From NCBI RefSeq assembly GCF_032248455.1, contig NZ_JAVTTP010000001.1, forward strand, positions 2,044,501-2,108,500: a DNA stretch of 64,000 bases. The letters are read 5' to 3'. The notes below the pieces were generated by a model that made no database searches, was not told where the DNA came from, and saw only the letters and a program-made list of their open reading frames with translations. This stretch comes from Pricia mediterranea (GTDB lineage Bacteria > Bacteroidota > Bacteroidia > Flavobacteriales > Flavobacteriaceae). A program made the position numbers and the translations under genes. Below are positions 1,136 through 17,193 of this stretch, piece by piece (position 1 is the stretch's first letter; each line of letters opens with the position of its first letter).

Positions 1136-1564
1136 CGCATGCTGCGGTTTGTTGAGCCCTACAACCAGTGCCTTATGGGTTTATCTAATATTTTGTGATT
1201 CTCCTATTTTGATCTAAGTTTACCGTGGATACCTTGAGAACACTAACTCAATTCAGTCTTAAAATATAAAATGCTTGTCCGTTTTAAAACCTAAACCTGA
1301 CGCAGACTCTAAGATAGGGGACTAAAAAATCTCGAAAAATCGACCTATTTTGTGTGAAAATCAACGGTCTTATGTCCTAGGTCCAACAGTCTCATCTATC
1401 AACACGATGATTACCGGTCAATTATTTTTTACATAAACTTACTAACCAATAAACCCATAAACTGGCCAATTATTAGTCAAAGTTCGAAATCCCGCGACTC
1501 GGGCCGGGTAAGGGACTTACGTCTTTTAAGATGTTTTAAGCGGACAGGTATTAAACAAAAAAAC
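1136..1564. other. Gene-free stretch with dispersed repeat copy A
   Basis: These 429 bases lie between the kinase and the enoyl-CoA hydratase. The middle holds copy A of the dispersed repeat. The rest is AT-rich and I see no convincing coding frame, terminator hairpin or TAnnTTTG box close to the next start. Confidence 0.6.
1270..1403 (+). repeat. Dispersed degenerate repeat, copy A
   Basis: Shares blocks in the same order with 11797-11945 and 16988-17150. First comes a CTTGTCC-TTTT-AAACCTAAA block, then a GACTAAA-TTTTGAAAA-like block followed by CC-ATTTT, then a tail of GTCYTA-like units of 7-8 bp (GGTCTTAT, GTCCTAG, GTCCAAC). Divergence between copies is high, so the edges are approximate. 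Confidence 0.6.
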
Positions 1565-2344
1565 ATGAAATACAACAATCTTCTTGTCGAAACAAAGAAT
1601 CCAATCGGTATAATCACCGTGAGTCGCCCCAGTAAGCTCAATGCCTTAAACCGGGAGACCATCGCGGAACTGCACAATGCTTTTAAGGCGCTCGAGTCGG
1701 ACCGGGAGATCAAGGTCATCATCTTGACCGGTAGCGGGGAAAAGGCCTTCGTGGCGGGCGCGGATATTTCAGAATTTGCCGACTTCTCGGAAGAGGAAGG
1801 CGTCCGACTGGCCGCCGAGGGACAAAAAAAGTTGTTCGATTTTGTAGAAAACTTGTCCAAACCGGTGGTCGCCGCAGTGAACGGCTTCGCTTTGGGCGGG
1901 GGACTCGAACTGGCCATGGCCTGCCATTTTCGCGTGGCCAGTGACAATGCCCGAATGGGACTTCCGGAGGTGTCGCTAGGCCTGATTCCCGGATACGGCG
2001 GAACCCAGCGCCTACCTCAGCTTATCGGAAAGGGAAGGGCGATGGAAATGATTTTGACCGCCGGCATGATCGATGCGAAAAAAGCCCTAACCTACGGTTT
2101 AGTGAACCACGTGGTCTCTCCCGAAAGTCTGCTTTCCTTTTGCGAGGATTTGGCCGGCAACATATCGAAAAACTCCCCAGTGGCGATAGACCATGCAATA
2201 AAATCAATAAATATTGGTTTTAAGAATACCGAAGGCTACGCTGCTGAAATCGAAGCATTTGGTACATGTTTCGGAACCGCCGATTTTAAAGAAGGTACTA
2301 CGGCGTTCTTGAACAAGCGCAAAGCCGATTTCCCGGGGGAATAA
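1565..2344 (+). CDS. Enoyl-CoA hydratase/isomerase family protein (crotonase fold)
   Basis: Cytosolic crotonase-superfamily enzyme of 259 residues, the usual length for short-chain enoyl-CoA hydratase. It adds water to trans-2-enoyl-CoA in fatty-acid or amino-acid breakdown. Both catalytic acids of true hydratases are present: Glu115 in GGGLELA and Glu135 in LPEVSLGLIPG. The oxyanion-hole segments AGADI and FALGGG are also intact. It stands alone on the plus strand with no other beta-oxidation gene beside it, so the substrate is open. ATG 1565 follows an A-rich stretch and is the natural start. Confidence 0.92.
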   Translation: MKYNNLLVETKNPIGIITVSRPSKLNALNRETIAELHNAFKALESDREIKVIILTGSGEKAFVAGADISEFADFSEEEGVRLAAEGQKKLFDFVENLSKPVVAAVNGFALGGGLELAMACHFRVASDNARMGLPEVSLGLIPGYGGTQRLPQLIGKGRAMEMILTAGMIDAKKALTYGLVNHVVSPESLLSFCEDLAGNISKNSPVAIDHAIKSINIGFKNTEGYAAEIEAFGTCFGTADFKEGTTAFLNKRKADFPGE

Positions 2345-2469
2345 ACAGATCTCGCCAACGTACCGGCTATCCTAAACCGCTTGCGTTTGGCATGCTTTTT
2401 ATGGAACAGACCGCCGGTGACGGCGAACGGGCGTTGGCATTTGATAACCCATCCCAATACAACCTACTT

Positions 2470-4020
2470 ATGAACATTTCACAGGGCATGGCCGCCCTAC
2501 TCTTTTTGACCGCGCTACAGCTTTGCCGAGCACAGGACATCCCCGTATCCTATGAGCTTGGCGAGAATTATTCCGATAGGTACAAGTACTCTACCCTGCT
2601 CACCAGTGACCGTACGTCCGCAGACGAGACCGTATTCGTGCGTACGTACTATAGTGGATATCCTCTTCGTCCCAAGGGTCATTTTATCGAAATCTACGAT
2701 GCGGAAATGAACTTGGCACGGGACTACAATTACAAATATGCCGGGAACCATATGATCGATGGTTTTGTAAAAAACGGACAGCTCTACCTGTTGGAACTGA
2801 CCTATAGTACCAACCAAGAAGCGTATCAATATGTAGTACATCAAAGTCCACTGCACGAGTTTAGGTTTACCGAACGCCTGCTACTTTCCGTTCCCTCGAA
2901 AGAAGTCGCCAATCCGTTGGCCGTGAGCAAGTACAACCGAAGTTTTGGCAACGGCTTCTCGACCGCGGTCCATTTCGACAAGGGCCGGTCGGCTTTTGCC
3001 ATTACGGTCCAGCACCGAGAACGACGGAACGACAAATACCATGTCTATCTCTTCGGAACGGATTTAAAACAGCAGTTTGCCTATGACTTTACGACTGAAA
3101 TTGCCGATAAGAATTATGCCTTCGAGAGTATCGAGGTATCGAAAGACCTAAAGACACTCTACCTGACGGGAAAAGTTTTCTTCAAAAAACGTCGGTTCGA
3201 AGCCAATGAAAGAAGATTCCGATACGAACTTGTCAAAATAGATAATGGAGGGCATCGTACCCAGCAATTCGACGATTCCGGTAGATTTCCTGAATCCTTA
3301 AAGCCCGTGCTTTCGGATCGGGAGCTTAAAATTGTCGGTTTTTATGCAGACCGAAAATCCAAGCGGTACAACGGACTGGCCTATTTTAGGATGGATACCA
3401 ATTCGCTGGACATCACGGACCGAAAGTACAATCCGTTTTCAGATCGGTTTATGATGGATAAGTTCGGCCGTGAAGTCGACACCGAACTCAAGAATCTGGT
3501 TTTCAAGGATGTGCATATTACGGCCGACAACGGAATACTGTTCAGTGCCGAAGAGTATTATATGACCCAAGGAAGGGATATCTCCGGAGGGGGCACCCAG
3601 ATTACCGACCGGTATCATTATAACGACATCGTAATCGCCAAGTTGAATGCGTCCGGGGCAATGGAATGGGCACGGAACATCAATAAGGCCGAGGTGACGC
3701 AAGGCGATGCATCCTACGCATCGTACGCCGCCTATGGCGTCGCCGACCAGATGTACTTCTTTATTAATTCCGGGGAAAACCCACAGACGATGAGCAAAGA
3801 ACGTATCCTATTCAAACAAGGCTACAGCCGCAACCCGAACATGTTTGTCATCAAGGTCGACGGCGAGGGTAACTTATCCCACAAAAAATTGATAGACGAC
3901 AAAGAGATACGCCTGCCTATCATGGTCTCGCGGCCGTTGATCGACACATCCTCCGACAACCTCCTTTTTTATGCAAAGCGCGGTAAGAGAAAACAGCTGG
4001 TGCGGGTCTTGGTCAATTAA
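2470..4020 (+). CDS. Secreted protein of unknown function
   Basis: I do not recognise the family. The open frame begins at 2392, but an ATG at 2470 starts a good signal peptide (hydrophobic core ending in CRAQ), giving a protein of 516 residues; the extra upstream residues are not signal-like. The mature part has many short Tyr/Arg/Asp-rich beta-like segments and a stretch near the middle (DIVIAKLNASGAMEWARNI) that resembles the blades of secreted beta-propeller proteins in Bacteroidota. A propeller fold is inference only. No partner gene is adjacent: the radical SAM gene downstream is 190 bases away. Confidence 0.75.
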   Translation: MNISQGMAALLFLTALQLCRAQDIPVSYELGENYSDRYKYSTLLTSDRTSADETVFVRTYYSGYPLRPKGHFIEIYDAEMNLARDYNYKYAGNHMIDGFVKNGQLYLLELTYSTNQEAYQYVVHQSPLHEFRFTERLLLSVPSKEVANPLAVSKYNRSFGNGFSTAVHFDKGRSAFAITVQHRERRNDKYHVYLFGTDLKQQFAYDFTTEIADKNYAFESIEVSKDLKTLYLTGKVFFKKRRFEANERRFRYELVKIDNGGHRTQQFDDSGRFPESLKPVLSDRELKIVGFYADRKSKRYNGLAYFRMDTNSLDITDRKYNPFSDRFMMDKFGREVDTELKNLVFKDVHITADNGILFSAEEYYMTQGRDISGGGTQITDRYHYNDIVIAKLNASGAMEWARNINKAEVTQGDASYASYAAYGVADQMYFFINSGENPQTMSKERILFKQGYSRNPNMFVIKVDGEGNLSHKKLIDDKEIRLPIMVSRPLIDTSSDNLLFYAKRGKRKQLVRVLVN

Positions 4021-4186
4021 CTGTCGTTTGGCGCCAGCAAAGTAGAATCGGAAATATTTCATTGCCCATATTTCTCCATTGTCCGCCTTAATTCCCAACG
4101 ATTGTGTGGTATGCCGTACTGATTTTTTGAGCTAATGGAAATTCAATCTTCGAAGGCAAGAACTTTTTTTAAATGGAATAATTCCG

Positions 4187-4194
4187 TATTTTTG
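4187..4194 (+). promoter_or_regulatory. -7 promoter box TATTTTTG upstream of radical SAM gene
   Basis: Matches the Bacteroidota TAnnTTTG element and ends 16 bases before the TTG at 4211. It supports that unusual start codon. No clear -33 TTTG partner was seen. Confidence 0.5.
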
Positions 4195-4210
4195 GAAAAA
4201 ATCCATTTTA

Positions 4211-5278
4211 TTGAGTTTGAAGCGCCATTTTAAGGGCCGCGGCGCCCAGCAGAACACTCCAAATCGATTCCTTGAGAACAGCCATGAGATCCGGGACGAT
4301 TTTTTGGAATTTTGCCGTCTCGAAGGAGAGGAAGCGGACAGCAATAGAACCCAATATATCCCTATTTTTCCGAAGACCATCGTCAATACCGTCACGAGTC
4401 CCGATGTGGGAATGGAGTATTCCATGAATCCCTACCAGGGCTGCGAGCACGGCTGTATTTACTGTTACGCGCGTAACACCCACGAATACTGGGGGTACAG
4501 TCCCGGTCTGGATTTCGAAAGGAAGATATTGGTCAAAAAAGCGGCGGCGGACTTGCTACAGGCCAAACTCAGGTCGAAGCGCTGGAAGGCCAAAACCATC
4601 GTACTATCCGGTAACACCGACTGCTACCAACCAGTGGAAAGAAAATTCGGGATTACCCGCGCCTGTCTAGAAGTTTTCCTGAAATACAGACATCCCGTGG
4701 GCATGATTACCAAAAATTCGTTGATCCTAAGGGACCTCGATATCCTAAAAGAGCTGGCAAAGGACCGGCTGGTCGGGGTCAACATATCGGTCACCTCGTT
4801 ATCGGAAGAAACAAGACGTATTCTTGAACCGCGTACAGCCAGCATCAAAAAACGGCTGGAAACCATCCGGATATTATCCGAGAACAATATTCCTGTCAAT
4901 GCGATGTTGGCCCCTATCATTCCGGGCATCAACAGCCATGAGATTATGGACTTGGCAAAGGCCGTTTCCGATAACGGAGCCCGTTCCTTTGCCTTTACCG
5001 TGGTTCGTTTAAATGGGGCGCTCGGCGGTATTTTCACCGATTGGATAAAGAAGACGCTGCCAGATAGGGCCGATAAAGTACTGCATCAGATACAGGAATG
5101 CCACGGCGGCAGTCTCAACGATAGCAGATTCGGGATCCGTAGTCGTGGGGAAGGCCAAATTGCCGCACAAATACATGATCTGGTGCGCTTGGCCAAAAGT
5201 ACTTATTTTAAGGACAAAAAGTTTCCGGTCCTAAACCATGAACAAACGTATAAAGACGGACAGTTAAGGTTGTTCTAA
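4211..5278 (+). CDS. PA0069-family radical SAM protein
   Basis: Radical SAM protein of 355 residues related to spore photoproduct lyase-like proteins. The 4Fe-4S motif CxxxCxxC is at Cys78, Cys82 and Cys85 in a GCEHGCIYCYAR context, as in the PA0069 group, and the N-terminal KGRGAQ-NRF signature is present. The function of the group is not established; repair or RNA/protein modification has been guessed from the fold. The start is a TTG at 4211: no in-frame ATG precedes the conserved KGRGAQ motif and a promoter box sits just upstream. Monocistronic as far as can be seen. Confidence 0.88.
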   Translation: MSLKRHFKGRGAQQNTPNRFLENSHEIRDDFLEFCRLEGEEADSNRTQYIPIFPKTIVNTVTSPDVGMEYSMNPYQGCEHGCIYCYARNTHEYWGYSPGLDFERKILVKKAAADLLQAKLRSKRWKAKTIVLSGNTDCYQPVERKFGITRACLEVFLKYRHPVGMITKNSLILRDLDILKELAKDRLVGVNISVTSLSEETRRILEPRTASIKKRLETIRILSENNIPVNAMLAPIIPGINSHEIMDLAKAVSDNGARSFAFTVVRLNGALGGIFTDWIKKTLPDRADKVLHQIQECHGGSLNDSRFGIRSRGEGQIAAQIHDLVRLAKSTYFKDKKFPVLNHEQTYKDGQLRLF

Positions 5279-5381
5279 AGGATGTGCTGCTATCCCGATG
5301 ACATCGATTGGAGATGTATGGCGCGGGATACCAAGTCCGTTTCCGGCGTTCGGCCAAAAAAAATATGCAATCGATATGATG

Positions 5382-6077
5382 CTACTCTTTTCGGGTATCG
5401 GTAGGTAGGGCCAAGGGGTTCCATTCCTTAAAGAACTGTTGCAGGAAATCCATCATATACCAATGACGATGTTCGGCCAGCTTTTTTCCGGTTTCGGTAT
5501 TCATTTGATCTTTTAGGAGCAGTAGTTTTTCGTAGAAATGATTGATGGTCGGGGCAGTACTGTTCTTATATTCTTCCTTGGTCATTTTCAGGTTGGGGGC
5601 GATTTCAGGGTTGTATATTTCTCGATTCTTAAAACCCCCGTAGTTGAAGGCACGGGCGATACCGATGGCTCCCATGGCGTCTAAACGATCGGCGTCTTGC
5701 ACCACGAAAAGCTCCTTCGACCGCAACTTGCGTCCCCGCTTCTTTTGTAGACTGTTTTTGAACGACATATTCTTGATAATCTTCACAACATGTGTGATGG
5801 TCTTTTTCTTGACCCTCAGTTCCTTCAAAAAGTTTTCCGCCAAGGCGGGCCCGATGGCTTCATCGCCGTTATTGAACTTGGCATCCGCAATATCGTGGAG
5901 CAAGGCGGCCAGGCTCACGGTCAGCACATCTACTTTTTCATCCTTGGCGATAAACAACGTATTCTTGAATACCCGTTGCACGTGGAACCAATCGTGCCCG
6001 CCTTCGGCCCCTGCCAAGGTTTCCTTAACGAAGGCAATGGTCCGCTCCACAATCTCGCTGTCGCTCATTTTAGGCAT
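5382..6077 (-). CDS. HD-domain metal-dependent phosphohydrolase
   Basis: Cytosolic HD-superfamily hydrolase of 231 residues (YedJ-like). Metal ligands expected of the family are visible: His28 (GGHDWFH), the His61-Asp62 doublet in LLHDIAD, and a downstream Asp in QDADRLDAMGA. The likely substrate is a nucleotide or other phosphorylated small molecule, not determined. ATG 6077 lies inside the end of the acyltransferase gene (8-base overlap, minus strand), so the two are co-transcribed and probably translationally coupled. A second ATG at 6068 would also fit. Confidence 0.88.
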   Translation of the reverse strand: MPKMSDSEIVERTIAFVKETLAGAEGGHDWFHVQRVFKNTLFIAKDEKVDVLTVSLAALLHDIADAKFNNGDEAIGPALAENFLKELRVKKKTITHVVKIIKNMSFKNSLQKKRGRKLRSKELFVVQDADRLDAMGAIGIARAFNYGGFKNREIYNPEIAPNLKMTKEEYKNSTAPTINHFYEKLLLLKDQMNTETGKKLAEHRHWYMMDFLQQFFKEWNPLALPTDTRKE

Positions 6078-6840
6078 GGGTCCCGTTTTTTATCGTTGAT
6101 GTTGTTTTAAAAGATGTTACGCAAGAAACTACCGCTTTTTCGGTGGATGCGATGACCTCATCAAGGTTATCCGTGATTTCGATGGGCCGGTGTACTGTAA
6201 AGTTGATATGGTTCCCGATACCCTTGGGAAATTTACCGTAGCGCAGCATCTTCCAAGAGTTATCGATACTTATCGGCACCACGAGGGCCGTCGGCGCGTT
6301 CTTCATCAATATCTTAAGTCCCGTCGCCTTAAACGGTTTAGGATGCCCGGTCCGGCTACGTGTGCCTTCGGGAAATATGACGGCGCTGCGACCGTGCTTT
6401 TCGATATATCGTCCCAATTTTGCAATTTCCACTAGGGCCTGCCGGCTATCCTTGCGGTCTATTAGAACCGAGCCCCCGTGTCTCAGGTTATACGAAACGC
6501 TGGGTATTCCCCGGCCCAATTCGGTCTTACTTACAAATTTGGGATGCCAATTACGCATGAACCAGATTATGGGCGGAATATCGTGCATGCTCTGATGGTT
6601 GGGCACGATGATCAAGGCGCGGTTCACAGGAATACCGTGGGGATTATCAAAAGTGTAAGTGGTGCCTAGGATGTGGGTACACCGCATAAGGCATAGATTC
6701 AGCACCGCGACACTTTTACGATGTGCCTCGTAGCCAAAAAAGTTGTAGCACACCCATTGCACTGGATGAAACACCAACAAGGTAAGACCGAAAGCGATCA
6801 GGTAAAGTAGGGTCAAGGGATATGCCAATAACTTCTGCAT
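6070..6840 (-). CDS. plsC: 1-acyl-sn-glycerol-3-phosphate acyltransferase family protein
   Basis: Membrane-associated lysophospholipid acyltransferase of 256 residues. The catalytic NHX4D box is His82-Asp87 (NHQSMHD) and the phosphate-binding FPEGTRS box is at 156-162. A hydrophobic N-terminal segment (about 5-25) anchors it in the inner membrane. The family makes phosphatidic acid from lysophosphatidic acid, though Bacteroidota carry several paralogues, including aminolipid acyltransferases, so plsC is the nearest name rather than proof. First gene of a two-gene unit with the HD hydrolase. The promoter box leaves only 4 bases before ATG 6840. Confidence 0.85.
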   Translation of the reverse strand: MQKLLAYPLTLLYLIAFGLTLLVFHPVQWVCYNFFGYEAHRKSVAVLNLCLMRCTHILGTTYTFDNPHGIPVNRALIIVPNHQSMHDIPPIIWFMRNWHPKFVSKTELGRGIPSVSYNLRHGGSVLIDRKDSRQALVEIAKLGRYIEKHGRSAVIFPEGTRSRTGHPKPFKATGLKILMKNAPTALVVPISIDNSWKMLRYGKFPKGIGNHINFTVHRPIEITDNLDEVIASTEKAVVSCVTSFKTTSTIKNGTHA

Positions 6841-6844
6841 GCTA

Positions 6845-6852
6845 CAAAAATA
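6845..6852 (-). promoter_or_regulatory. -7 box TATTTTTG 4 nt before plsC ATG (leaderless)
   Basis: On the minus strand the order is TATTTTTG, TAGC, ATG. With normal spacing from box to transcription start, the mRNA would begin at the A of the start codon. Confidence 0.6.
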
Positions 6853-7062
6853 AGGTACTGAAAATGTTTATGGAAGGAAAAAAGGGGGATTAGCCCCTTG
6901 AGACGGCCTTTAACCGATACCAAATTCCGGGGCAATCGGGTCAGCCGCGCCAATACAGGATGCGAAACACCGAATTGCCCGAAGGGATGTTGTCAATAAA
7001 CTAATACGCCAACATATTTGTGGTATAAGGTCTTTTCCTGAGCGGCAAGGAGAATGTAAGGC

Positions 7063-7097
7063 AAAAAAAAAGACCGTCTGCTTGAGAAACGGTCTTT
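7063..7097 (-). terminator. Rho-independent terminator of the bacilliredoxin gene
   Basis: Stem AAAGACCGT (7069-7077) pairs with ACGGTCTTT (7089-7097). Read on the minus strand it is followed by an unbroken T run (7071 to 7063). It lies about 70 bases after the bacilliredoxin stop. Confidence 0.9.
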
Positions 7098-7167
7098 CAA
7101 TATGCCTATTCGCCTCCCCTACATAGGTTTCGACGTAAGTCAGGGGAAAGGTGAAAATGGTTTGAGC

Positions 7168-7578
7168 TTAGCAAAACTCGTTATACGCACCGGTCAGGTT
7201 TTCGGCGATCATTTCTGCCGGCCGGCCCTCGATGTGATGGCGTTCGATCATATGCACCAACTCCCCATCCTTGAACAAGGCGATGCTGGGTGAAGACGGG
7301 GGAAAGGGAACCATCAGGTCCCGTGCCGCTTTGACCGCCTCGACATCGACCCCGGCAAAAACCGTTACGGTATGGTCCGGCCTTTTAGCGTTATGTAGGC
7401 TTAATTTTGCGGCAGGACGTGCATTGGCGGCAGCGCAGCCACAGACCGAATTGACAACGACCAAAGTCGTGCCTGGTTTATTTATCGCATTTTCGACCGC
7501 TGCGGCCGTATATAACTCCTCAAACCCGGCTGAAGCCAAGTCCTCTCTCATAGGTTGTACTAATTCTGCGGGATACAT
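7168..7578 (-). CDS. BrxA/BrxB-family bacilliredoxin (YphP/DUF1094)
   Basis: Thioredoxin-fold disulfide reductase of 136 residues with the family CGC motif at Cys46-Gly47-Cys48 (NSVCGCAAANARPA). In Firmicutes these enzymes remove bacillithiol from S-thiolated proteins; flavobacteria also carry the family, and some make bacillithiol. Cytosolic and single-gene: a promoter box lies 26 bases upstream of ATG 7578 and a strong terminator follows the stop. Family certain; in vivo thiol partner inferred. Confidence 0.92.
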   Translation of the reverse strand: MYPAELVQPMREDLASAGFEELYTAAAVENAINKPGTTLVVVNSVCGCAAANARPAAKLSLHNAKRPDHTVTVFAGVDVEAVKAARDLMVPFPPSSPSIALFKDGELVHMIERHHIEGRPAEMIAENLTGAYNEFC

Positions 7579-7604
7579 AGTTCTGTAATTTTAAATTTGG
7601 AAAG

Positions 7605-7612
7605 CAAAGATA
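7605..7612 (-). promoter_or_regulatory. -7 box TATCTTTG of the bacilliredoxin gene
   Basis: Perfect TAnnTTTG on the minus strand, 26 bases before ATG 7578, giving a short normal leader. Confidence 0.65.
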
Positions 7613-7943
7613 CGGAATTAGTCGTGTTTTACGGGGAGACTTAACGTTTCGTTGCGAAAACGAATGAGAACAGTGTCCTTTTTCTTCCGACAGGGATACC
7701 CCCCCCCTAAAATCGATGAACCTACGAAGCATTCCCTTTGACCCCTTAAGCGAAGTTGTGCACTCGATTCGCGACCGACAGCCTGCCGCAACGGTTTAGT
7801 TGCGCTCCTCGGACAGCGTTTCGAGTAGACCGCAATCGTTGCAGCGCCGATATCATCGGTACTGCCGCCACCGTAGTTCGAGATTATTGGATTACCGGAA
7901 ATGCCCCCTGTTTTTCTCTGCCTTACTTTTACTTCTCTTTCAG
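7613..7943. other. Gene-free stretch between divergent promoters
   Basis: Separates the divergent bacilliredoxin and TerB/DnaJ genes. It contains a run of nine C at 7699-7707. Reading frames here have composition unlike neighbouring genes and no family match, so I call nothing coding. Confidence 0.5.
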
Positions 7944-7951
7944 TACCTTTG
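7944..7951 (+). promoter_or_regulatory. -7 box TACCTTTG of the TerB/DnaJ gene
   Basis: Perfect TAnnTTTG ending 18 bases before ATG 7970. It decides the start: the longer frame opening at 7901 would begin upstream of the promoter box. Confidence 0.7.
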
Positions 7952-7969
7952 CCCAAATTTTGGAACAAC

Positions 7970-8707
7970 ATGATTAAATGGTTCGCGGCCATCGTAGGAT
8001 ATTACTTTTTTCGGTTTCCCGGAGCGATTCTCGGGTTTTTAGTGGGGAGCTTCATCGATAATTTAAGTCGTAAGGGCGGCGGGGCACAGACCATGTTCGA
8101 CGACATGACCAGACAGAGTGTCTCCCCCGCGGATTTCGAATTGAACCTACTTTCGCTCTGTTCGCTTGTCATCAAGGCAGACGGACAGGTAAGTCAGCGT
8201 GAAATGGACTACGTGCGCCAATACTTTCTCAGCACATATGGCAAGGACAAGGCCAACGCCATTTTCAGAACATTTAACGAGGTTGTCAAAAAACGGGAAA
8301 TTTCGGCCCGACGGATCTGTTCTTTCCTCAATCAACGGACCCGCTATGAGGTCCGCCTCCAATTATTACACTTTCTTTTCGGAATCGCACAGGCTGACGG
8401 GGCGGTCAGTAATGCCGAAATCGGGAAAATAAAGGAGATTGCAGGGTACCTACGGGTCGGGGCGCGCGATTTCGAGAGTATTATGGCGATGTTCGTCAAA
8501 TCGGCCGACAATGCTTACAAAATCCTTGAAATCGAAAAAACGGCTTCCGATGAGGAGGTAAAAAAAGCCTATCGCAACATGGCCAAAAAATACCATCCCG
8601 ACCGGGTCAATACCCAAAATGAAGCCATCAAACAAGGTGCAGAAGAAAAATTCAAGGAAGTGCAAAAGGCCTACGAGGAAATTCAAGCTGAACGTGGCAT
8701 CGGATAA
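7970..8707 (+). CDS. DjlA-like membrane-anchored TerB/J-domain co-chaperone
   Basis: Inner-membrane co-chaperone of 245 residues from ATG 7970. A glycine-rich membrane segment lies at about 5-30 ([19 protein letters not shown]). It is followed by a TerB-like helical domain (about 55-175) and a C-terminal J domain with the HPD motif at 209-211. This is the order of DjlA-type proteins, which recruit DnaK to the cytoplasmic face of the membrane. The start is set by the promoter box at 7944-7951. The HupE/UreJ gene follows 22 bases later and may be in the same transcript. Confidence 0.9.
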
Positions 8708-8729
8708 GCAAACAATATAAACAAGCCAC

Positions 8730-9317
8730 ATGAATGATTTGCCGTTCTATGTAAAGCTGGGCCTGGAACACGTTCTAGATCTAAGCGCTTACGACCACAT
8801 TCTGTTCCTAACCGCCCTATCCTTGCCATTTACCTTTAAAAGTTGGAAAAAGGTGGTCGTGCTCGCCACGGTCTTTACCATAACCCATTGTATTTCATTG
8901 GCCTTAAGCTCCTATAACCTGATCGTTATGGATGTAGGGCTTATCGAGTTTTCGATACCCGTTACCATCTTGATGACCGCCGTACTAAACCTTTTATACG
9001 TAAAATCGGGCAAAAAAAGCAGCAATATTTGGCTTCATGCGCTCGCCACGGCCTTTTTCGGATTAATTCATGGGTTTGGGTTCAGTAATTATTTCAAAAT
9101 GCTTGTGGCCGAAGTAGAAGATAAGGCACCCCCCTTATTGGGTTTTGCCGCTGGCATTGAAATTTCCCAGATAATCATTGTTCTCTCCGTATTGTTTATC
9201 TCACAGCTCATAACTTCGTTTATTAAAATAAGGCACAATGCTTTTATATCGGTGTTTTCTATCCTGATTATTCTTTTGACCCTACCCATGATGATGGAAA
9301 CATTTCCATTTGTCTAA
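8730..9317 (+). CDS. HupE/UreJ-family membrane protein
   Basis: Integral membrane protein of 195 residues with about six hydrophobic segments, beginning with a conserved GLEHVLDLSAYDHILFL stretch. The HxxD-like histidines (LEHVLD, YDHILF, HCISL, IHGFGFS) are typical of HupE/UreJ proteins, which carry nickel or cobalt in hydrogenase/urease contexts. Neither hydrogenase nor urease genes lie here, so metal transport is family knowledge, not shown locally. Probably co-transcribed with the upstream TerB/J gene. Confidence 0.85.
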   Translation: MNDLPFYVKLGLEHVLDLSAYDHILFLTALSLPFTFKSWKKVVVLATVFTITHCISLALSSYNLIVMDVGLIEFSIPVTILMTAVLNLLYVKSGKKSSNIWLHALATAFFGLIHGFGFSNYFKMLVAEVEDKAPPLLGFAAGIEISQIIIVLSVLFISQLITSFIKIRHNAFISVFSILIILLTLPMMMETFPFV

Positions 9318-9406
9318 TTCTCACGTCGATTTTCACGTAAAATTAACCCCATATTATTGTGAGCTAGAACCAAAGCAACTACCTTAGTACTCTTTCCCGT
9401 AACGGA

Positions 9407-9850
9407 ATGAGAGAAAGTAAACAAGAAAAATACGATAAGGCTTACTTGCGCATGGCCAAGGAATGGGGCAAGCTTTCTTATTGTGAACGTCGACAAGTAG
9501 GTGCCATTATCGTAAAGGATAGGATGATCATTTCCGATGGATACAATGGCACTCCCACCGGATTCGAAAATTTTTGTGAGGACGACTTGGGATATACCAA
9601 ATGGTACGTTTTGCACGCTGAGGCCAATGCAATCAGCAAAGTAGCCGCCTCCACCCAGTCTTGCCAAAGCGCCACGCTTTACATCACATTATCGCCATGT
9701 CGGGAATGTAGCAAACTGATTCATCAATCCGGAATAAACCGAGTGGTATATCAAACAGCTTATAAGGATGGGTCAGGACTAACCTTTCTTAAGCGGGCAG
9801 GAGTCGAATTGGTGCACCTGCCGGAAATCGAGTCTTCCGCATTGCGGTAA
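9407..9850 (+). CDS. dCMP deaminase family protein
   Basis: Zinc deaminase of 147 residues converting dCMP to dUMP in pyrimidine nucleotide synthesis. The catalytic zinc motif His70-Ala-Glu72 and the Pro97-Cys98-x2-Cys101 pair are intact, and the substrate loop ISDGYNGTPTGFENFCED matches ComEB/dCMP deaminases. Cytosolic. ATG 9407 gives a normal N-terminus for the family. The C-terminal protease gene starts 44 bases downstream, so the two may form one unit. Confidence 0.93.
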   Translation: MRESKQEKYDKAYLRMAKEWGKLSYCERRQVGAIIVKDRMIISDGYNGTPTGFENFCEDDLGYTKWYVLHAEANAISKVAASTQSCQSATLYITLSPCRECSKLIHQSGINRVVYQTAYKDGSGLTFLKRAGVELVHLPEIESSALR

Positions 9851-9894
9851 GTCAAGGGATAATCGAAAGTCGTGATCAACTACGCCTAAAACCT

Positions 9895-11520
9895 ATGAAA
9901 CGAAAATATAGCTATTTGTGGCCTACGATTATTGCCGCTGCGATGGCATTGGGCATTTTTGTAGGAGGCAAATTACATTTCAACGACGCCCCAGAAAGGT
10001 TTTTTACCTCAAACTCAAAGAAAGATAAACTCAATCGTTTAATCGATTTTATCGACTATGAATATGTAGATGATGTGGACACCGACAGCATCGTAGACCT
10101 CACGGTCAACCAGATATTGGAAAAATTAGATCCGCATTCCGTATATATTCCCAAAGAAGAACTGGAAAGAGTCAGCGAGAACATGAAAGGGGATTTTGTA
10201 GGAATCGGCATCAATTTTTACCCTTACAAAGACACCATTGCAGTGATACGTGCCATCCCCAAAGGTCCCAGTTCCCGCAACGGGATCAAGGCCGGAGATC
10301 GTATTCTCATGGCCGATAAGGACACCCTTTTTGGCAAAAATTTTGCTAGTCAGGCCATTGTGAACAAACTAAAAGGCAAGAAAGGCAGTTCGGTAAAACT
10401 CAAAGTTTATCGTAAGAATGACGATAGAACCTTTAACGTCAACATCAAGCGCGAGGTTATACCCATTAAAAGTGTGGAATCCTATTATATGATGACCGAT
10501 GATATGGGCTACATCAAAATCAATCGATTTGCGGAATCTACTTATAAAGAATTTAAGTCCGCCCTACGCTCCCTGCAGAAACGCGGTGCAGAAAAGCTTA
10601 CTTTAGACCTTCGCGACAATCCGGGAGGTTATCTTGGGGTAGCCGAAAAATTGGCCGATGAATTTTTGCAGGATGACAAACTCATTCTTTACACCAAAAA
10701 CAAGAGGGGGAAAATTGATAAAATTCACGCTACGGAAAAGGGAAGTTTTGAAAATAAACCGGTCTACGTTCTGATTAACGAGCGTTCGGCCTCGGCAAGC
10801 GAAATTATTGCGGGTGCCCTGCAGGACAACGATATTGGCACAATTGTGGGGCGTCGTTCTTTCGGAAAGGGACTCGTGCAGCGAGAAATGGAGCTGGGCG
10901 ATGGTTCCGCAGTACGACTGACCGTGTCCAGATACTATACGCCGACCGGCCGTAGTATTCAAAAACCTTATAGCAATGGGACTAAAGATTATTATAGGGC
11001 CTTCACCGACCGGTATCACAACGGGGAAATGCTTTCCGTCGATAGCATCAAGGTCGCGGACTCCTTAAAGTTTACGACTCCAAAGGGGAAGGTGGTCTAT
11101 GGCGGGGGCGGTATTATTCCAGACGTTTTTGTACCGATTGGTTCAAATGAAGAGGAAGCCGTAGAAAGTATGGACAGCTACGGATGGCTCTCCTATTTCA
11201 TCTTTGAACATTTGGACGGGAATAGAGATCAATATGCGGACTATTCTGAGCAGAGATTTGTTACGGATTTCTCCGTTGACGACATTCTCTTCCAGAATTT
11301 TGTTGATTACTCCCTACAACGGAACCTGAAAATGGATTTCTATGATTATGAGAAATCTTTGAAAGTGTACCTAAAGGCGGCTTTGGCCGAGCAACTTTTT
11401 AACGCCAACGTCCACGCCAAGATTAAAGGTTCGGAAGACGCCATGCTCAAGAAAGTACTAGACTTGGACAAGCCCGTCGTCAGACAACGCGATGCCGAAG
11501 CTATCGGGGCACACAATTAG
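9895..11520 (+). CDS. S41-family C-terminal processing protease (CtpA-like)
   Basis: Periplasmic serine protease of 541 residues. An N-terminal membrane anchor/signal (about 8-26) is followed by a PDZ domain (about 95-185, with FVGIGI and GIKAGDRI) and the S41 catalytic domain. The nucleophile serine lies in ERSASASE (297-303), with the general-base Lys325 in GKGLVQ and the DNPGG turn at 241-245. Such tail-specific proteases cut the C-termini of envelope proteins. It faces a small membrane-protein gene tail to tail, with only 4 bases between stops. Confidence 0.94.
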   Translation: MKRKYSYLWPTIIAAAMALGIFVGGKLHFNDAPERFFTSNSKKDKLNRLIDFIDYEYVDDVDTDSIVDLTVNQILEKLDPHSVYIPKEELERVSENMKGDFVGIGINFYPYKDTIAVIRAIPKGPSSRNGIKAGDRILMADKDTLFGKNFASQAIVNKLKGKKGSSVKLKVYRKNDDRTFNVNIKREVIPIKSVESYYMMTDDMGYIKINRFAESTYKEFKSALRSLQKRGAEKLTLDLRDNPGGYLGVAEKLADEFLQDDKLILYTKNKRGKIDKIHATEKGSFENKPVYVLINERSASASEIIAGALQDNDIGTIVGRRSFGKGLVQREMELGDGSAVRLTVSRYYTPTGRSIQKPYSNGTKDYYRAFTDRYHNGEMLSVDSIKVADSLKFTTPKGKVVYGGGGIIPDVFVPIGSNEEEAVESMDSYGWLSYFIFEHLDGNRDQYADYSEQRFVTDFSVDDILFQNFVDYSLQRNLKMDFYDYEKSLKVYLKAALAEQLFNANVHAKIKGSEDAMLKKVLDLDKPVVRQRDAEAIGAHN

Positions 11521-11524
11521 CAAG

Positions 11525-11728
11525 CTACTTCCCATCGACTCTTCGCTGAATTTTTTTGCTCACCCTAAAGATGAGCAGTAGGGCGATAGCACAGAGCGGA
11601 GCAACGATGCCGATTAACGCAATAACGCTATCCCCCTGAAACGGATTTTGAAAATCTACCATCGTAACGTTGAAAGCAATCAGCGCCAAAGCCAAAACTA
11701 TTAGAATTATGTTGAGCGTTCTGTTCAT
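11525..11728 (-). CDS. Small two-segment membrane protein, unknown function
   Basis: A 67-residue protein with two strong membrane segments (about 6-24 and 36-55), a short acidic/aromatic loop between them and a basic C-terminus (RVSKKIQRRVDGK), which predicts an N-in, C-in hairpin. ATG start. The composition is coding-like and the frame ends exactly at the neighbouring protease's stop. No named family recognised. Confidence 0.7.
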   Translation of the reverse strand: MNRTLNIILIVLALALIAFNVTMVDFQNPFQGDSVIALIGIVAPLCAIALLLIFRVSKKIQRRVDGK

Positions 11729-12032
11729 CTTTTGATTCTTGATTTTGTAATTATGGCTTAGAAAGCTGTTTTAAATTATATCATTTGTTTTTTTAAACTT
11801 ATCCATTTTGAAACCTAAACCCGATGTAAAACGCTGTTAATTAAGTCAAAGGACTAAATATTTTGAAAAGCGCCGCATTTGATGGGAAAGCCAAAGGTCT
11901 TAATTCCTAACGCCCTATGTCACATTCATCGATTAGGTAATTGGCGGACAACCACTGATTTTTTGCAACCCCTTCTGCGCATTTCAAAACAGTTTCTAAT
12001 TTTAATTTCTCCCCGCATGGAAAAATCCAGTG
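11729..12032. other. Gene-free stretch with dispersed repeat copy B
   Basis: About 300 bases between the small membrane-protein gene and the end of the MarC gene. Repeat copy B fills its middle; nothing else is recognised. Confidence 0.5.
11797..11945 (+). repeat. Dispersed degenerate repeat, copy B
   Basis: Carries ATCCATTTTGAAACCTAAAC, then GGACTAAATATTTTGAAAAG with CGCATTT, then AAAGGTCTTA and a heptad-like tail (TTCCTAAC, GCCCTAT, GTCACAT). The block order is the same as copies A and C. Confidence 0.6.
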
Positions 12033-12620
12033 CTAGAACAACTGATTAATATTCGTCGCAAACAATTTTACCGCTATGGCCAACAAAATGACCCCAAAAA
12101 CCTTACGGATAACACTTAGCCCGTTTTTACCCAACACCTTCTCGATTTTTTTAGAGGACTTCAGTACTAAATATACAAAGATAGTATTTGCGACAATGGC
12201 TATGATAATATTCTCTACTTGGAACTCCGCACGAAGCGATAAAATGGCTGTCAAGGTACCCGCACCGGCTATTAAGGGAAAGGCGATTGGTACTATCGAG
12301 GCGCTCTCCGCCTCTTCATCACGGTAGAGAGTTACCCCTAAGATCATCTCAATGGCCAAGAAAAAGATTACGAAAGCCCCTGCCACTGCAAAGGAGTTCA
12401 CGTCTATCCCAATCAAATTTAGGATTTCCTCGCCAACAAATAAAAATGCCACCATGATAACGGCAGATACCACCGAAGCTTTTTCCGATTCGATATGTCC
12501 GACCTTCTGCCGCAGCCCTATTATGATCGGGATGCTTCCCAGTATATCGATGACCGCAAACAGAACCATGGTCGCCGTAGCTATTTCCCGAAAATCAAAA
12601 TTAAATTTCATATCCATCAT
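12033..12620 (-). CDS. MarC-family integral membrane protein
   Basis: Membrane protein of 195 residues with about six hydrophobic helices and the MarC-family segments IDILGSIPII and FPLIAGAGT. The family was named from the mar locus, but its transport role is unproven. Three ATGs lie close together (12620, 12617, 12611); any could be used. The nearest minus-strand TAnnTTTG-like box is more than 100 bases upstream, so the promoter is uncertain. Confidence 0.9.
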   Translation of the reverse strand: MMDMKFNFDFREIATATMVLFAVIDILGSIPIIIGLRQKVGHIESEKASVVSAVIMVAFLFVGEEILNLIGIDVNSFAVAGAFVIFFLAIEMILGVTLYRDEEAESASIVPIAFPLIAGAGTLTAILSLRAEFQVENIIIAIVANTIFVYLVLKSSKKIEKVLGKNGLSVIRKVFGVILLAIAVKLFATNINQLF

Positions 12621-12836
12621 TGATAACTATAAGTATTAAACCTCAGGGGAAAACTAGGTACAGTTTTTCCAGGGCAACGCTCTTGGGAGGTATTAAACCC
12701 ATTAAAATAAAAGCGGACGGCACCCGTTGCACTAGAAAGTTAAAAATCGTGCAAAACTAAGATTATTTCTATGGATTTCCGATTATCCACCAGAAATATC
12801 TCTCCGTACAATGCATTAATCAATCTTCTTAAAACG

Positions 12837-12844
12837 TATTTTTG
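12837..12844 (+). promoter_or_regulatory. -7 box TATTTTTG of the DUF3109 gene
   Basis: Perfect TAnnTTTG ending 20 bases before ATG 12865. Confidence 0.65.
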
Positions 12845-12864
12845 TATCCTCTAAAAAGCCTACG

Positions 12865-13431
12865 ATGTTCCAGCTTGGAAAAAGTATAGTATCCGAAGAT
12901 ATTATCCAAAAAGATTTCGTCTGCAACCTTAGTGCATGTAAGGGGGCATGTTGTATCGATGGTAGCGCGGGAGCTCCTGTCGAGGACAGTGAGACGGATA
13001 TTCTAGTGGATATTTACTCCGAGGTCAAACCGTTTTTAAGGCAAGAGGGCATCGATGCTATCGAAGAACAAGGTGCCTTTGTCAAGGGGGAGGATGGGGA
13101 ATGGGAAACCCCGTTGGTCAACGGTAGTGAATGCGCCTACGTGACTTTTTCCGATAACGGGACTGCGAAGTGCGGAATCGAGGAGGCCTATGAGCAAGGG
13201 GCCATTGCATGGAAAAAGCCGGTCTCTTGCCATCTCTATCCGGTTCGAGTAAAGGAATACTCCGAGCTAACGGCAGTAAACTACCACAAGTGGCATATCT
13301 GTGACCCGGCATGTGCCTTGGGGACTGAGCTGCAAGTGCCGATTTACAAGTTCGTGAAAGAAGCGCTAATCCGTAAGTTCGGCACCGATTGGTATGAAGA
13401 ATTGGAACAGGTCGCAGAAGAACTTGTATGA
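12865..13431 (+). CDS. DUF3109 family protein, cysteine-rich
   Basis: A 188-residue soluble protein. The N-terminal CNLSACKGACC cluster and later cysteines (SECAYV, AKCGIEEAYE, VSCHLYPVR, HICDPACALG) match the DUF3109/YkgJ-type cysteine pattern and suggest a bound metal or Fe-S cluster. Biochemical role unknown. Own promoter box 20 bases upstream. Confidence 0.85.
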   Translation: MFQLGKSIVSEDIIQKDFVCNLSACKGACCIDGSAGAPVEDSETDILVDIYSEVKPFLRQEGIDAIEEQGAFVKGEDGEWETPLVNGSECAYVTFSDNGTAKCGIEEAYEQGAIAWKKPVSCHLYPVRVKEYSELTAVNYHKWHICDPACALGTELQVPIYKFVKEALIRKFGTDWYEELEQVAEELV

Positions 13432-13623
13432 TGCAGCATGCTCATTAATAGCCAAAATAACATTCCAATATTAAGCTTCAAGGGCCGGGCCGCAAAAGCG
13501 GCGCGAACAAAATTGGGATTAACCCATGATGGTTAGTGCGTAAGGGTGCCACGACCTTTCCAGCCATTCGACCAACCCTTTCCTCAATTTTTTTGCGAAT
13601 TGTTCCATGACATTGGGAGTGTT

Positions 13624-15600
13624 TCAAGTTGTAGGCAGATGTATCACGACCTTGGTGCCACTAGCCTCGCCTCGATCGTCGTAGAGATCTACAATTTCAA
13701 GATAAAACGGATTTTGATACTCCTTGGCGAAATTGGCCAAGCGCTCCCGCGTGATGTCGATGCCCACGGAGTTGCGTTTAAGCACCTTGTTGCGTTTCAA
13801 TTTTTCGGCCGCTGTCCTACCGATTCCATTATCAATAATGGCAATGTTTATATATCCTTTTCTGTCGCTTGAGAGATGCACATTAATATTCTTTTCACCC
13901 TGCTTACTCGACAATCCGTGCCACAGGGCGTTTTCTAGAAAAGGCTGTAAAATCAGGGACGGAATCCGGACGGTATGGGTATCAATATGCTCATCGACAT
14001 GAATGTTGAAATTGATTTCATTCGAAAAACGAATGTTCTCTATAATCATATAAAGTTCCACGGTTTCCAGCTCCTCGGCCAAGGGTATCTCGCGCACCGA
14101 AGATGCCTCTAGGATCTTACGCACGAGTTTTGAAAATTTGTTGAGATAGTGCACCGCGTTTTTCTGCTCGTTATTAATAATATACAGTTTGATGGAGTTG
14201 AGCGAATTGAACAGAAAATGCGGATTCATTTGGCTACGGAGCATGCTCTGTTCCAAGGTCAGTACTTTCTTTTCGTTCTTAAGTTGATACTGCCGGTATA
14301 GAATGTAGAAAATACCGGCTAACAAGGCTAAGGCGATACCGCTGATCAGCAAGGTGGTACGAGTGGTACGCAGTTCCATTTGGTACATCTTGTTCTCTTG
14401 CGCCAGCAATTCCATTTCGTTCTGGGCTTTCTGGGTGTTGTATCGAAAGAGTACGTCGTTTACATAGCGTACCGTTCCCTCGCTCAGGATTTCTTCTTCG
14501 ATACTGTCTGCTTCCACTTTGAAACCAAGTGCCTTTTTAAAGTCCCCCTTTTTTTCGAACAGTTGGGACAAGAGATGTTTAGCCCGGGCCGAACTGGCCC
14601 GCAAATCCGAATTTTGAGCTAATTCAAGGCCCTGAAGCATGTTTTTTTCAGCTTTATCGTATTGGCCCAGTTGCATCTGGCCCCATCCTAAGTCTATATA
14701 CACGGGGGCTACCAAAAATCCATCACCCAGATGATCTGCCACCGGAAGGGTCTGATCCAGTAATGTAATAGCTTGCTCTGTCCTGTTCTGTTTCAAGTAA
14801 ATGCGTGCGATGCTGGTATTGCAGATTACCCGGCCCATGTCATTATCGATTTCATCATTATAGGCATATGAAATTTGGTATCGCTCTAAAGCCTGATCGA
14901 GTTCACCTTGGTCTTCAAGGCTCTTCCCGATATTTTGCTGGTTGACCGCTAGCCCGAGTGTATTTCCAAGTTCCGCTTCGAGCTGCAGTGATCTTTCGAA
15001 GTAGTCGATCGCCTCATCGTGCTGTTCGAGCATGGCATATAGGTTGCCGATGCCGTTCAATGATACATTGATGCTCCGCTTTAAGCTGCTGGAAGGATTT
15101 TTAACGGATTGTGCCAATTCAAGTGCTCTTTGGTGGAAGTCCATGGCCATGCGAATGGAGGATATTCTGCGGTAGACCACCCCAAGGTTGTTCAGACTAT
15201 ACACCCTAAGCTCAAGGTTGTCGGCCTTTTCGGCAACGGCCTGAGCCTCTCGGTGGAGGGTAACAGCATCAATATATCTTGAGATGTTGCGATAGGCCCT
15301 ACCGAGTTCGTTAAGCGCATAAGATTGTCCGGCCGCGTATTGGTTGATGGCTGAGGTATTGGCCATATGGCGCATCATCAGGGTGTCCGCTCTATTCGGA
15401 CCTAATATTCGATGGATGTCGGAAAAGCCGGTCGGTTTGGCCTGGACCAAACTATCCACCGTTTCCAGAAACGCATCAGGCAAGGATTGGGAATAACTTC
15501 CGATAGAAACAAATAAAAAACCAAGACAAGCACCAAGTTGCGCGATAGGCAGAAACGAAGTACGGGGGAAGGCTACGTTAATAAATAGGTGGAATCGCAT
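13624..15600 (-). CDS. TPR-containing LytS-type sensor histidine kinase
   Basis: Membrane kinase of 658 residues. Domains in order: signal peptide (about 18-38, ending SYSQ), periplasmic tetratricopeptide repeats (about 75-370), coiled segment, membrane helix (about 410-432), His_kinase domain with His461 in NPHFLFNSLN, and ATPase with N557 (ENALWHG) and DNGIG at 590-594. This is the Bacteroidota TPR-LytS layout that partners LytTR regulators. The regulator gene ends 10 bases upstream, so the pair is one operon. The stimulus is unknown; TPR domains often sense envelope or protein partners. Confidence 0.93.
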   Translation of the reverse strand: MRFHLFINVAFPRTSFLPIAQLGACLGFLFVSIGSYSQSLPDAFLETVDSLVQAKPTGFSDIHRILGPNRADTLMMRHMANTSAINQYAAGQSYALNELGRAYRNISRYIDAVTLHREAQAVAEKADNLELRVYSLNNLGVVYRRISSIRMAMDFHQRALELAQSVKNPSSSLKRSINVSLNGIGNLYAMLEQHDEAIDYFERSLQLEAELGNTLGLAVNQQNIGKSLEDQGELDQALERYQISYAYNDEIDNDMGRVICNTSIARIYLKQNRTEQAITLLDQTLPVADHLGDGFLVAPVYIDLGWGQMQLGQYDKAEKNMLQGLELAQNSDLRASSARAKHLLSQLFEKKGDFKKALGFKVEADSIEEEILSEGTVRYVNDVLFRYNTQKAQNEMELLAQENKMYQMELRTTRTTLLISGIALALLAGIFYILYRQYQLKNEKKVLTLEQSMLRSQMNPHFLFNSLNSIKLYIINNEQKNAVHYLNKFSKLVRKILEASSVREIPLAEELETVELYMIIENIRFSNEINFNIHVDEHIDTHTVRIPSLILQPFLENALWHGLSSKQGEKNINVHLSSDRKGYINIAIIDNGIGRTAAEKLKRNKVLKRNSVGIDITRERLANFAKEYQNPFYLEIVDLYDDRGEASGTKVVIHLPTT

Positions 15601-15610
15601 GTAATCAAGG

Positions 15611-16345
15611 CTACAACATATCTAAAAATCCTGATTTCTTTTGTCGGGACACGGGAATTTTGTGGTTGGACTGTAAAACGACATAACCATCGGTCTTTAG
15701 AAACTCCTTAATTTTGCCAAGATTGATTATATAGGAATTGTGTATTCTGAAAAAAGAATCTTCCGGCAAAATTTCATTAACCTCCTTCAACTTTTTGGTC
15801 AGCACCATTTTACTGCCATCCGCCAAAAAAATGGTACTATAATTACCGTCAGACTCAGCATAGAGTACGTCATCGCTCTCTAAAAAGACCAGCTTTCCGT
15901 CAGTATTGAAGGTTATCTTCTTGTGCTTGGCGTTGGCATTAAAGTTCATTAAAATTTTTTCGAGCCTTTCCGCCGTAAAGTTCTTGGCATTGTATTTCCT
16001 TATCTTGACAATGGTCTCCCTAAGATCATCGGCGTCTATAGGCTTTAAAAGATAGTCGATGGCTTCGTTCTTCAAGGCCTTAATGGCATATTGATTATAA
16101 GCGGTGGTGATGACTACCGGGAAATTCTTGTTCGTCAACTTTTTAATAAACTGGAACCCGTCCATTGTCGGCATTTCAATATCCAGGAAAAGGCAGTCCG
16201 GGGTATTCTTTTCCAAATATTCCAAAGCTGCAAAGGGATCCGTAAAGGAGGCCTTGACTTCTATTTCATCGCTGAAGTTAGTCAATTCCCAGGTCAAGCT
16301 CTGTAGGGCCTTTTTCTCATCGTCAACGATTACGGCTTCTAACAT
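15611..16345 (-). CDS. LytTR-family response regulator
   Basis: Response regulator of 244 residues from ATG 16345; the frame opens 18 codons earlier, but MLEAVIVDDE is the usual receiver start. The receiver domain has the acidic pair Asp8-Asp9, phospho-acceptor Asp55 (FLDIEMPTMDG), Thr80/81 and Lys101. A LytTR DNA-binding domain occupies about 141-240. It is first in the operon with the TPR kinase and should be phosphorylated by it. Targets cannot be named. Confidence 0.93.
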   Translation of the reverse strand: MLEAVIVDDEKKALQSLTWELTNFSDEIEVKASFTDPFAALEYLEKNTPDCLFLDIEMPTMDGFQFIKKLTNKNFPVVITTAYNQYAIKALKNEAIDYLLKPIDADDLRETIVKIRKYNAKNFTAERLEKILMNFNANAKHKKITFNTDGKLVFLESDDVLYAESDGNYSTIFLADGSKMVLTKKLKEVNEILPEDSFFRIHNSYIINLGKIKEFLKTDGYVVLQSNHKIPVSRQKKSGFLDML

Positions 16346-16938
16346 CTTCTCATGTTTTAGATTAAGATTCTCCAGCTCATGGTTCGAAAACCCATTCAAA
16401 ATTATGTTTATAAACGACTATAAGACTGTCTTGAGTGGTGTGATTAGAATTTTTTAAGGTCATTTATAAAGCGGTTTTAGGCAAAATCCTATAACATAGC
16501 CATAGCATCGGTCTAAGATTTTAATGGGACCGGTAGCAGAAGGTCAACGAATTGGCCTTGGGCAGAGAAGCTAGCGAATGCATGAGCCTGTAAAAAGGGA
16601 CATAAATAATTGAAATACTTCAAAACAGCTTCCAAGCAATAGGTTCTAAGTTACTCAAATATAACTCGATATTCTCGAAGCTAAACGGCAAATGTGCAAA
16701 TGGTAGTATTCAACGTACCGTCGGCGTAAAATACCGTCTTTTTGGATAGAAAATGAATTTAACAGTTTTCACAACAGCTATTGGCCTTTTCACAACAAAT
16801 ATTTACCGTTCGTCGAATACTGGCTTACTTTCACTTTGTATTTGAAAATTAGTGCTTTGCCGATGGCAAGGCACTGGAAGTAAAGTTTGACTTATAACTG
16901 ACTGTGTAACCAAACTTGACCAACCATTCTTTAAAGGA
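16346..16938. other. Gene-free stretch upstream of the LytTR regulator
   Basis: About 590 bases with no convincing frame. It should contain the promoter of the regulator/kinase operon, but no minus-strand TAnnTTTG box close to ATG 16345 was found. Confidence 0.4.
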
Positions 16939-16965
16939 AAAGCCCTCCTGACCGGAGGGCTTTTC
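16939..16965 (-). terminator. Hairpin, probable (bidirectional) terminator
   Basis: Perfect 11-bp stem AAAAGCCCTCC (16939-16949) and GGAGGGCTTTT (16955-16965) with loop TGACC. The A/T tracts inside the stem suit either strand. The nearest gene that could use it is DUF3078 on the minus strand, with repeat copy C between. Confidence 0.65.
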
Positions 16966-16987
16966 AATTTCGCAACTTTCCAAATAG

Positions 16988-17150
16988 AATGCTTGTCCAT
17001 TTCGAAACCTAAATCGAAGTGGGAGTGTATGATTTAGGACAAACAACTAAAATTTCTTGAAAAGGCCGTCCATTTTATAGAAAAGTCGCCAGTCTAAAGT
17101 CTTACGTTCTACCGTCTAGTAACGTATTAAAGGTTTAGGTGAATAGGCAG
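16988..17150 (+). repeat. Dispersed degenerate repeat, copy C
   Basis: Contains ATGCTTGTCCATTTCGAAAC then CTAAAT, later ACTAAAATTTCTTGAAAAGG with CGTCCATTTTAT, and a tail AGTCTAA-AGTCTTAC-GTTCTAC-CGTCTAG. The first block nearly equals that of copy A (ATGCTTGTCCGTTTTAAAAC). Confidence 0.6.
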
Positions 17151-17193
17151 GCGGACACGCTTTTCAAATAGGCACGTTTTAGCCGCGCTAAAA

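Follow-up and report, generated by a model that had tools for sequence, protein, structure and literature searches.

Three intergenic repeats in a 64-kb stretch of Pricia mediterranea DNA: very probably decayed copies of a palindromic miniature transposable element

We describe here a degenerate repeat in a 64,000-nucleotide stretch of the Pricia mediterranea genome (the window; G000:C1:2044501-2108500, where G000 denotes the genome that the window comes from). Its three sequences in the window are very probably old, mutated copies of a miniature inverted-repeat transposable element (MITE) of ~170 bp, which was mobilised in trans and has since decayed; the family is apparently new, though of a well-known kind of element, and apparently extinct. 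An earlier note on this DNA had reported three degenerate copies of a 130-160 bp repeat, all on the plus strand, and proposed either a decayed non-autonomous element or a structured regulatory RNA family. Terminal inverted repeats, a target duplication of 10 bp, sites that are empty in congeners and the dispersal of the copies all support the first of these proposals, while the second found no support.

The copies were located with R1, a sequence-only model of 172 positions trained on nine copies including the three in the window. Since the training set thus held the window copies, a second, independent nhmmer model was rebuilt without them from 38 copies, 34 of G000 and 4 of a congener, G003. 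It recovered all three on the plus strand, close to where they had been reported, with E-values of 1.4e-27 to 3e-24, compared to a top score of only E 0.54 in 20 dinucleotide-shuffled windows. The repeat unit is thus real, but the elements are longer than the earlier note had estimated and are bounded by inverted repeats. The three copies can be aligned over their length, and an R1 scan of the window gave no fourth copy at E<=1. The features are as follows, all three R1 values being those of training copies:

1271..1425, plus strand: MITE copy 1 (R1 match 1271-1415, E 1.9e-27; independent model E 1.3e-24)
1271..1281, plus strand: left terminal inverted repeat of copy 1, ATGCTTGTCCG
11785..11794, plus strand: left target-site duplication of copy 2, TTGTTTTTTT, 7/10 equal to the right one and of low complexity
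11795..11955, plus strand: MITE copy 2, 161 bp (R1 E 1.5e-27; independent model E 3e-24), missing from three congeners
11956..11965, plus strand: right target-site duplication of copy 2, TGATTTTTTG
16979..16988, plus strand: left target-site duplication of copy 3, TCCAAATAGA, 8/10 equal to the right one
16989..17162, plus strand: MITE copy 3, 174 bp (R1 E 4.1e-31; independent model E 1.4e-27), missing from three congeners
17152..17162, minus strand: right terminal inverted repeat of copy 3, CGGACACGCTT on the plus strand, 9/11 to CGGACAAGCAT
17163..17172, plus strand: right target-site duplication of copy 3, TTCAAATAGG

The right end of copy 1 is decayed, and 1425 is an estimated boundary. The stretch behind it (window 1421-1515), which contains AATAAACCCATAAACTGGCC, has one other match in G001 and two in G003, both congeners, and TAAACCCATAAAC flanks that resemble it adjoin further copies too.

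Across the whole genome (4.57 Mb in three contigs), an 18-base core was found 16 times with at most one mismatch, while its reversed control was not found at all. One of these matches (L013) had no further likeness and four (L001, L008, L009, L012) retain the left part only; eleven of the 16 were aligned, and nine of these went into R1. Of the 83 rows that the R1 search returned at E<=1, 15 repeated a place on the opposite strand and 3 were weak (E above 0.2); with these taken out, 65 places were left. In G000, 44 places reach E<=1e-6 and 54 reach E<=1e-3, at least two of the 54 belonging to a second family described below, and some of the weak ones possibly matching through short internal heptads alone; we thus put the family at roughly 40-50 copies in this genome. 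The plus-strand orientation holds for the three copies in the window and not beyond it, as 26 of the 54 places are on the plus and 28 on the minus strand. All but one of the 54 overlap genes by 20% or less, as judged by a simple codon-usage gene caller; this home-made caller assigned 76% of the window to coding sequence, and genes may be missed. A terminator-like hairpin lies within 70 bp of 7/44 copies compared to 1/329 control points, a control that we distrust; as the window's own gaps over 50 bp hold such hairpins similarly often (~5 or 6 of 43), we claim no preference for terminators.

Of the 65 places, 22 have both ends preserved, matching the terminal repeat at 7/11 positions or better on either side. 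These two-ended copies measure 154-175 bp, start with ATGCTT(A/G)TCCG and finish with CGGACAAGCAT, so that the search for terminal repeats proposed by the earlier note does yield inverted ends, ATGCTTRTCCG. The exact end occurs 19 times in G000 and its reversed control 5 times; in none of the congeners G001, G002 and G003 does it exceed the control. At this length the copies have the shortness expected of MITEs, given as 50-1000 bp (PMC4596501) and typically under 300 bp (PMC9769881) in the sources at hand, and are too small to encode a transposase.

The interior was read from a consensus alignment of 43 rows, 41 of them distinct (37 from G000 and 4 from G003). Behind the end follow a subterminal ACCTAAACC, a series of heptads, a centre with CGGCCCG, and heptads again, inverted. 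The GTCYTA-like heptads described earlier as a tail are indeed present there, but they are not confined to it: they recur inverted in the left half as GACNTAR (in the consensus GACGTAG GACTGTAA GACTTAG GACAAAG GACTAAA), which makes the element palindromic. The consensus forms a full-length imperfect palindrome with a score of 42, compared to -3.7 in 200 base shuffles (sd, standard deviation, 7.2; maximum 14), and folds into one long hairpin of -60.7 kcal/mol. Autocorrelation at distance 7 is 0.321 vs 0.260 in base shuffles (z 9.9); it is also raised at distances 8 (z 5.4) and 20 (z 5.1), and is as high at distance 1 as at 7. Stops in three frames within 80 nt are met in 28/34 copies from the left and 25/34 from the right, where base shuffles give 20.5 (sd 2.7) and 18.6 (sd 2.9); the surplus amounts to no more than two to three standard deviations.

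That this unit has moved is shown in part by its flanks. In the 22 two-ended copies the 10 bp on either side agree at 53.6% of positions, compared to 37.2% when flanks were re-paired (z 5.57; 0/2000 re-pairings as high), and the best of 12 other duplication lengths tried in the range 2-14 was 9, with z 2.12. In the four G003 copies 7, 9, 7 and 5 of 10 positions are equal, the best pair being TATAAATTAT and TATAAATAAT (9/10). The surroundings of the window are syntenic in all three congeners, and the places of copies 2 and 3 are empty there. For copy 2 the intergenic gap measures 300-305 bp in the window, compared to 171 bp in G001, 0 bp in G002 and 67 bp in G003; for copy 3 it measures 222-228 bp in the window, compared to 31, 38 and 37 bp in these three genomes, respectively. 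At both sites the alignments contain no element-length insertion in these genomes, and R1 finds no copy there at E<=1e-3. For copy 1 the gap is shorter in G001 (144 vs 435 bp in the window) and in G003 (210 vs 499 bp in the window), so that by length this copy, too, is missing from these two. The reverse case is provided by a G003 copy (L055), whose right flank is matched in G000, G001 and G002 without an element in place. The target duplication and the empty sites together show that what moved was the unit bounded by the terminal repeats.

Several observations weigh against this view. A duplication of at least 7/10 is seen in only 6/22 copies (2.8% expected from re-pairing), two of the 22 have flanks matching at merely 1/10 and 2/10, and the outermost duplication columns are weak in G000 (9/22 each); an 8-bp duplication with one extra base per end stays tenable in G000, while the G003 copies favour 10. 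At the place of copy 1 the gap in G002 is 448 bp vs 438 bp in the window, so that length shows no empty site, although R1 detects no copy there. Finally, in 20 DDE_Tnp_1 (PF01609) loci of the four genomes we found neither the exact end nor a bounding pair, other transposase families not having been searched.

Two candidates for a parent or partner were considered and rejected. In G003, locus L101 has an inverted pair matching at 15/20 and of some likeness to the ends sought; one arm of the pair, however, falls within the gene next to it (399 aa) and is thus not the end of the insertion sequence (IS). In G000:C1:2863580-2864641 (L043 1501-2562), a pair of inverted copies with 790 bp between them bounds a potential composite unit of 1.06 kb; it encloses a 132-aa HbpS-like gene (PF03928, E 1.2e-40) and no transposase, and we read it as two separate insertions rather than as an autonomous partner. 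We would envisage a DDE-type transposase, encoded elsewhere, that moved the element in trans after recognising its 11-bp ends, with the heptad arms and the subterminal ACCTAAAC perhaps recognised as well. The burst would then have ended, with the mobilising gene lost or diverged, and the copies would have drifted without detectable selection on the hairpin. The copies differ from the consensus by 15-35% (mean 25%) and their pairwise identity averages 61%; the burst of transposition is thus old.

The range of the family is narrow. Among the four genomes of the genus R1 finds, at E<=1e-3, dozens of places in G000, four in G003 (79% complete), one heptad-type match in G002 and none in G001. Among 60 genomes, including its own, 9 have a match at E<=0.01; only those in G000 and G003 are full-length, the rest being weak or restricted to the heptad part. 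A scan of 397 family genomes, again including its own and with the best 7 candidates scored per genome, gave two genomes at E<=1e-6: G000 and, with a match to the heptad part, G030; the matches listed do not include G003. The exact pattern was also searched for in a wider set of contigs, and the four single matches obtained (metagenome-assembled genomes of a Methylococcaceae, a Halieaceae and a Chitinophaga, and a Paenibacillus) are read as chance. One copy compared to plasmids and one to phages gave no match, and no paper on this repeat was recognisable from its title or the start of its abstract. The profile search suggested in the earlier note thus produced further copies both genome-wide and in the congener G003, with scores far better than those of shuffled sequence.

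A hairpin of this strength invites the explanation that structured regulatory RNAs are made from these intergenic places and that the copies were kept for the hairpin, but we consider this very improbable. Two single copies do fold better than shuffles (z -2.3 and -4.5), in line with the folding energy of the consensus; single copies out-fold shuffles because palindromes must, and the pairing can be explained by a palindromic ancestor. Likewise, 72% of cells are paired compared to 37-45% with slid partners, a surplus to be expected as the structure was derived from the same consensus; against shuffles that keep column composition, the 56 pairs of the consensus hairpin have 72.2% of cells paired vs 72.3%. 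The covariation test, also proposed in the earlier note, gave compensatory changes no higher than in shuffles: a pair is kept through two-sided change in 37 cells vs 43.7 (sd 5.6), with 449/500 shuffles as high, and a separate count yielded 37 cells vs 42.8 in 1000 shuffles (p 0.88). The orientation relative to neighbouring genes, taken in the sense of the element, is even (++ 17, -- 15, +- 12, -+ 6, undecided 4; the window's own gaps over 50 bp have -- 16, ++ 14, +- 7, -+ 6). At gathering score Rfam reports only a tRNA in the window, and five copies with their flanks gave nothing at E<=0.1; around copy 3 there are four sub-threshold matches with E 0.02-0.9, the best being BTnc231 at 23.6 bits where 80.4 are needed (E 0.023). 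As copies 2 and 3 are moreover missing at the same loci in congeners, we reject a structured RNA family on covariation, orientation and distribution. Chance likeness among AT-rich intergenic DNA, for its part, can practically be dismissed: a 21-base pattern with at most 3 mismatches is indeed not rare in shuffled sequence (4 found, with 6/100 shuffles equal to that), but under the full-length model the E-values of copies and shuffles lie more than 20 orders of magnitude apart, and both this independent model and the core pattern, with its 16 occurrences against none for the reversed control, refute it.

The heptads raise a different question, since a second MITE-like family in G000 also carries them. 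Its ends, GGTTCTACCACGAATGTTG.. and ..ATAACGGTATAACC, are unrelated to ATGCTTRTCCG and occur 12 times with at most 3 mismatches, compared to 0 in the control, some (L213-L215) looking like chance. Four members (L205-L208; G000:C1:1735734, 3973060, 1036444 and 1694360) contain GACNTAR heptads, in both arms in three of them and in the left arm only in L206. Four further loci of G000 (L210, L211, L212, L216) have similar GGTTCT(A/G)CC ends and different interiors, with short purine-rich repeats, e.g. GGAAAGAGCAAGGAAGAAAGACGAA, in L210, L212 and L216. Locus L155 (1822-2012; G000:C1 about 2516000) is a 191-bp element with ATGCTT-type ends, AATGCTTGTACC and CGGACAAGCATT, and a different interior containing TCGACTGC stretches, which resemble repetitive extragenic palindromes (REPs).

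Gramella and Aequorivita, two of the five Bacteroidetes in which intergenic arrays of the heptamer TAACTGA are known, are Flavobacteriaceae. Such arrays, as described in PMC4679880, together with the seven-base periodicity (although distance 1 is equally raised) and the inverted heptads of the second family, could indicate that the repeat owes its spread or its retention to the DNA itself, e.g. as GACNTAR arrays that bind a nucleoid or regulatory protein, with the transposon-like ends being secondary. We regard this as improbable: the target duplication and empty sites define a moving unit bounded by the terminal repeats, and heptad triples are found in 11/299 family genomes compared to 14/299 for the reversed control (own tally). 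With the control as frequent, these counts give no evidence that heptads by themselves are enriched in the family. The 15 heptad matches that we inspected are short-repeat-rich, intergenic-looking stretches, some partly masked; in other genera of the family, L163, L167 and L161 have tandem 7-bp repeats (GACTTAG, GGGTTAT, GAAGTTA etc.) in intergenic-looking sequence. Somewhat less doubtful, yet still unlikely, is that the GACNTAR arms are a shared module captured by unrelated transposon ends, with heptad stretches occurring in other genera too. If so, the arms could serve as an array to which a common host factor binds, or they could halt translation in every frame, whichever side it comes from, and thereby make insertion between genes tolerable.

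On the reading as a decayed MITE, the family can be compared with known systems. MIC231 cassettes are non-autonomous elements. The IS4 family, which includes IS231/MIC231 and whose enzymes are of the DDE type, shares the target duplication of ~10 bp (IS231 10-12, ISH8 10, IS4Sa 8-10, IS4 10-13; PMC2266710, Table 1), but the ends listed there (CAT.., CA.., -AATR..) differ from ATGCTT.. at the boundary of the 10-bp duplication, which does not fit an IS4-family derivative, and the 20 PF01609 loci of the four genomes likewise have ends other than ATGCTT... BrickBuilt of Porphyromonas gingivalis (PMC4596501) is, as here, a Bacteroidota MITE with short terminal inverted repeats and an internal tandem repeat, and it is described with 19 copies and without a transposase remnant, which we count as a further likeness. 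It has a 23-bp tandem repeat, IS5-family-like ends and a duplication length that varies between copies, whereas our family has 7-bp inverted heptads in both arms, ATGCTTRTCCG ends, a 10-bp duplication and no parent IS found among the 20 PF01609 loci. The same account reports further MITEs of P. gingivalis with similar terminal repeats and unrelated interiors. MITECca01 of Cardinium (PMC9769881) is also a short Bacteroidota MITE (~240 bp) with many copies in a single lineage; it is described as a derivative of an IS982-family element that is resident alongside it and has similar ends, while here no resident parent was found among the PF01609 loci. REPs (PMC3733652) are multi-copy palindromes as well, given there as 20-40 bp, whereas the present elements are ~170 bp long, are bounded by terminal repeats and have duplicated their target. 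The TAACTGA arrays are intergenic 7-bp repeats, too, and end translation in the forward direction; they consist of another heptamer in direct repeats, most of which, in the genome chiefly described, lie close to start codons (PMC4679880), whereas the heptads of our family form inverted transposon arms.

A separate stretch of ~100 bp in the window (16423-16524), upstream of the LytTR regulator gene, matches three places in G001 and three in G003 with 72-78% identity and is another dispersed, apparently non-coding repeat of the genus.

Thus, a MITE family so strongly decayed that its copies differ by ~25% from their consensus can still be recovered, given boundaries and shown to have moved, without any Rfam match, and it provides clean material for work on the decay of mobile palindromes. 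Should it be no accident that two families with unrelated ends both have inverted heptad arms, this would furthermore pose a testable question as to why such arms are favoured.

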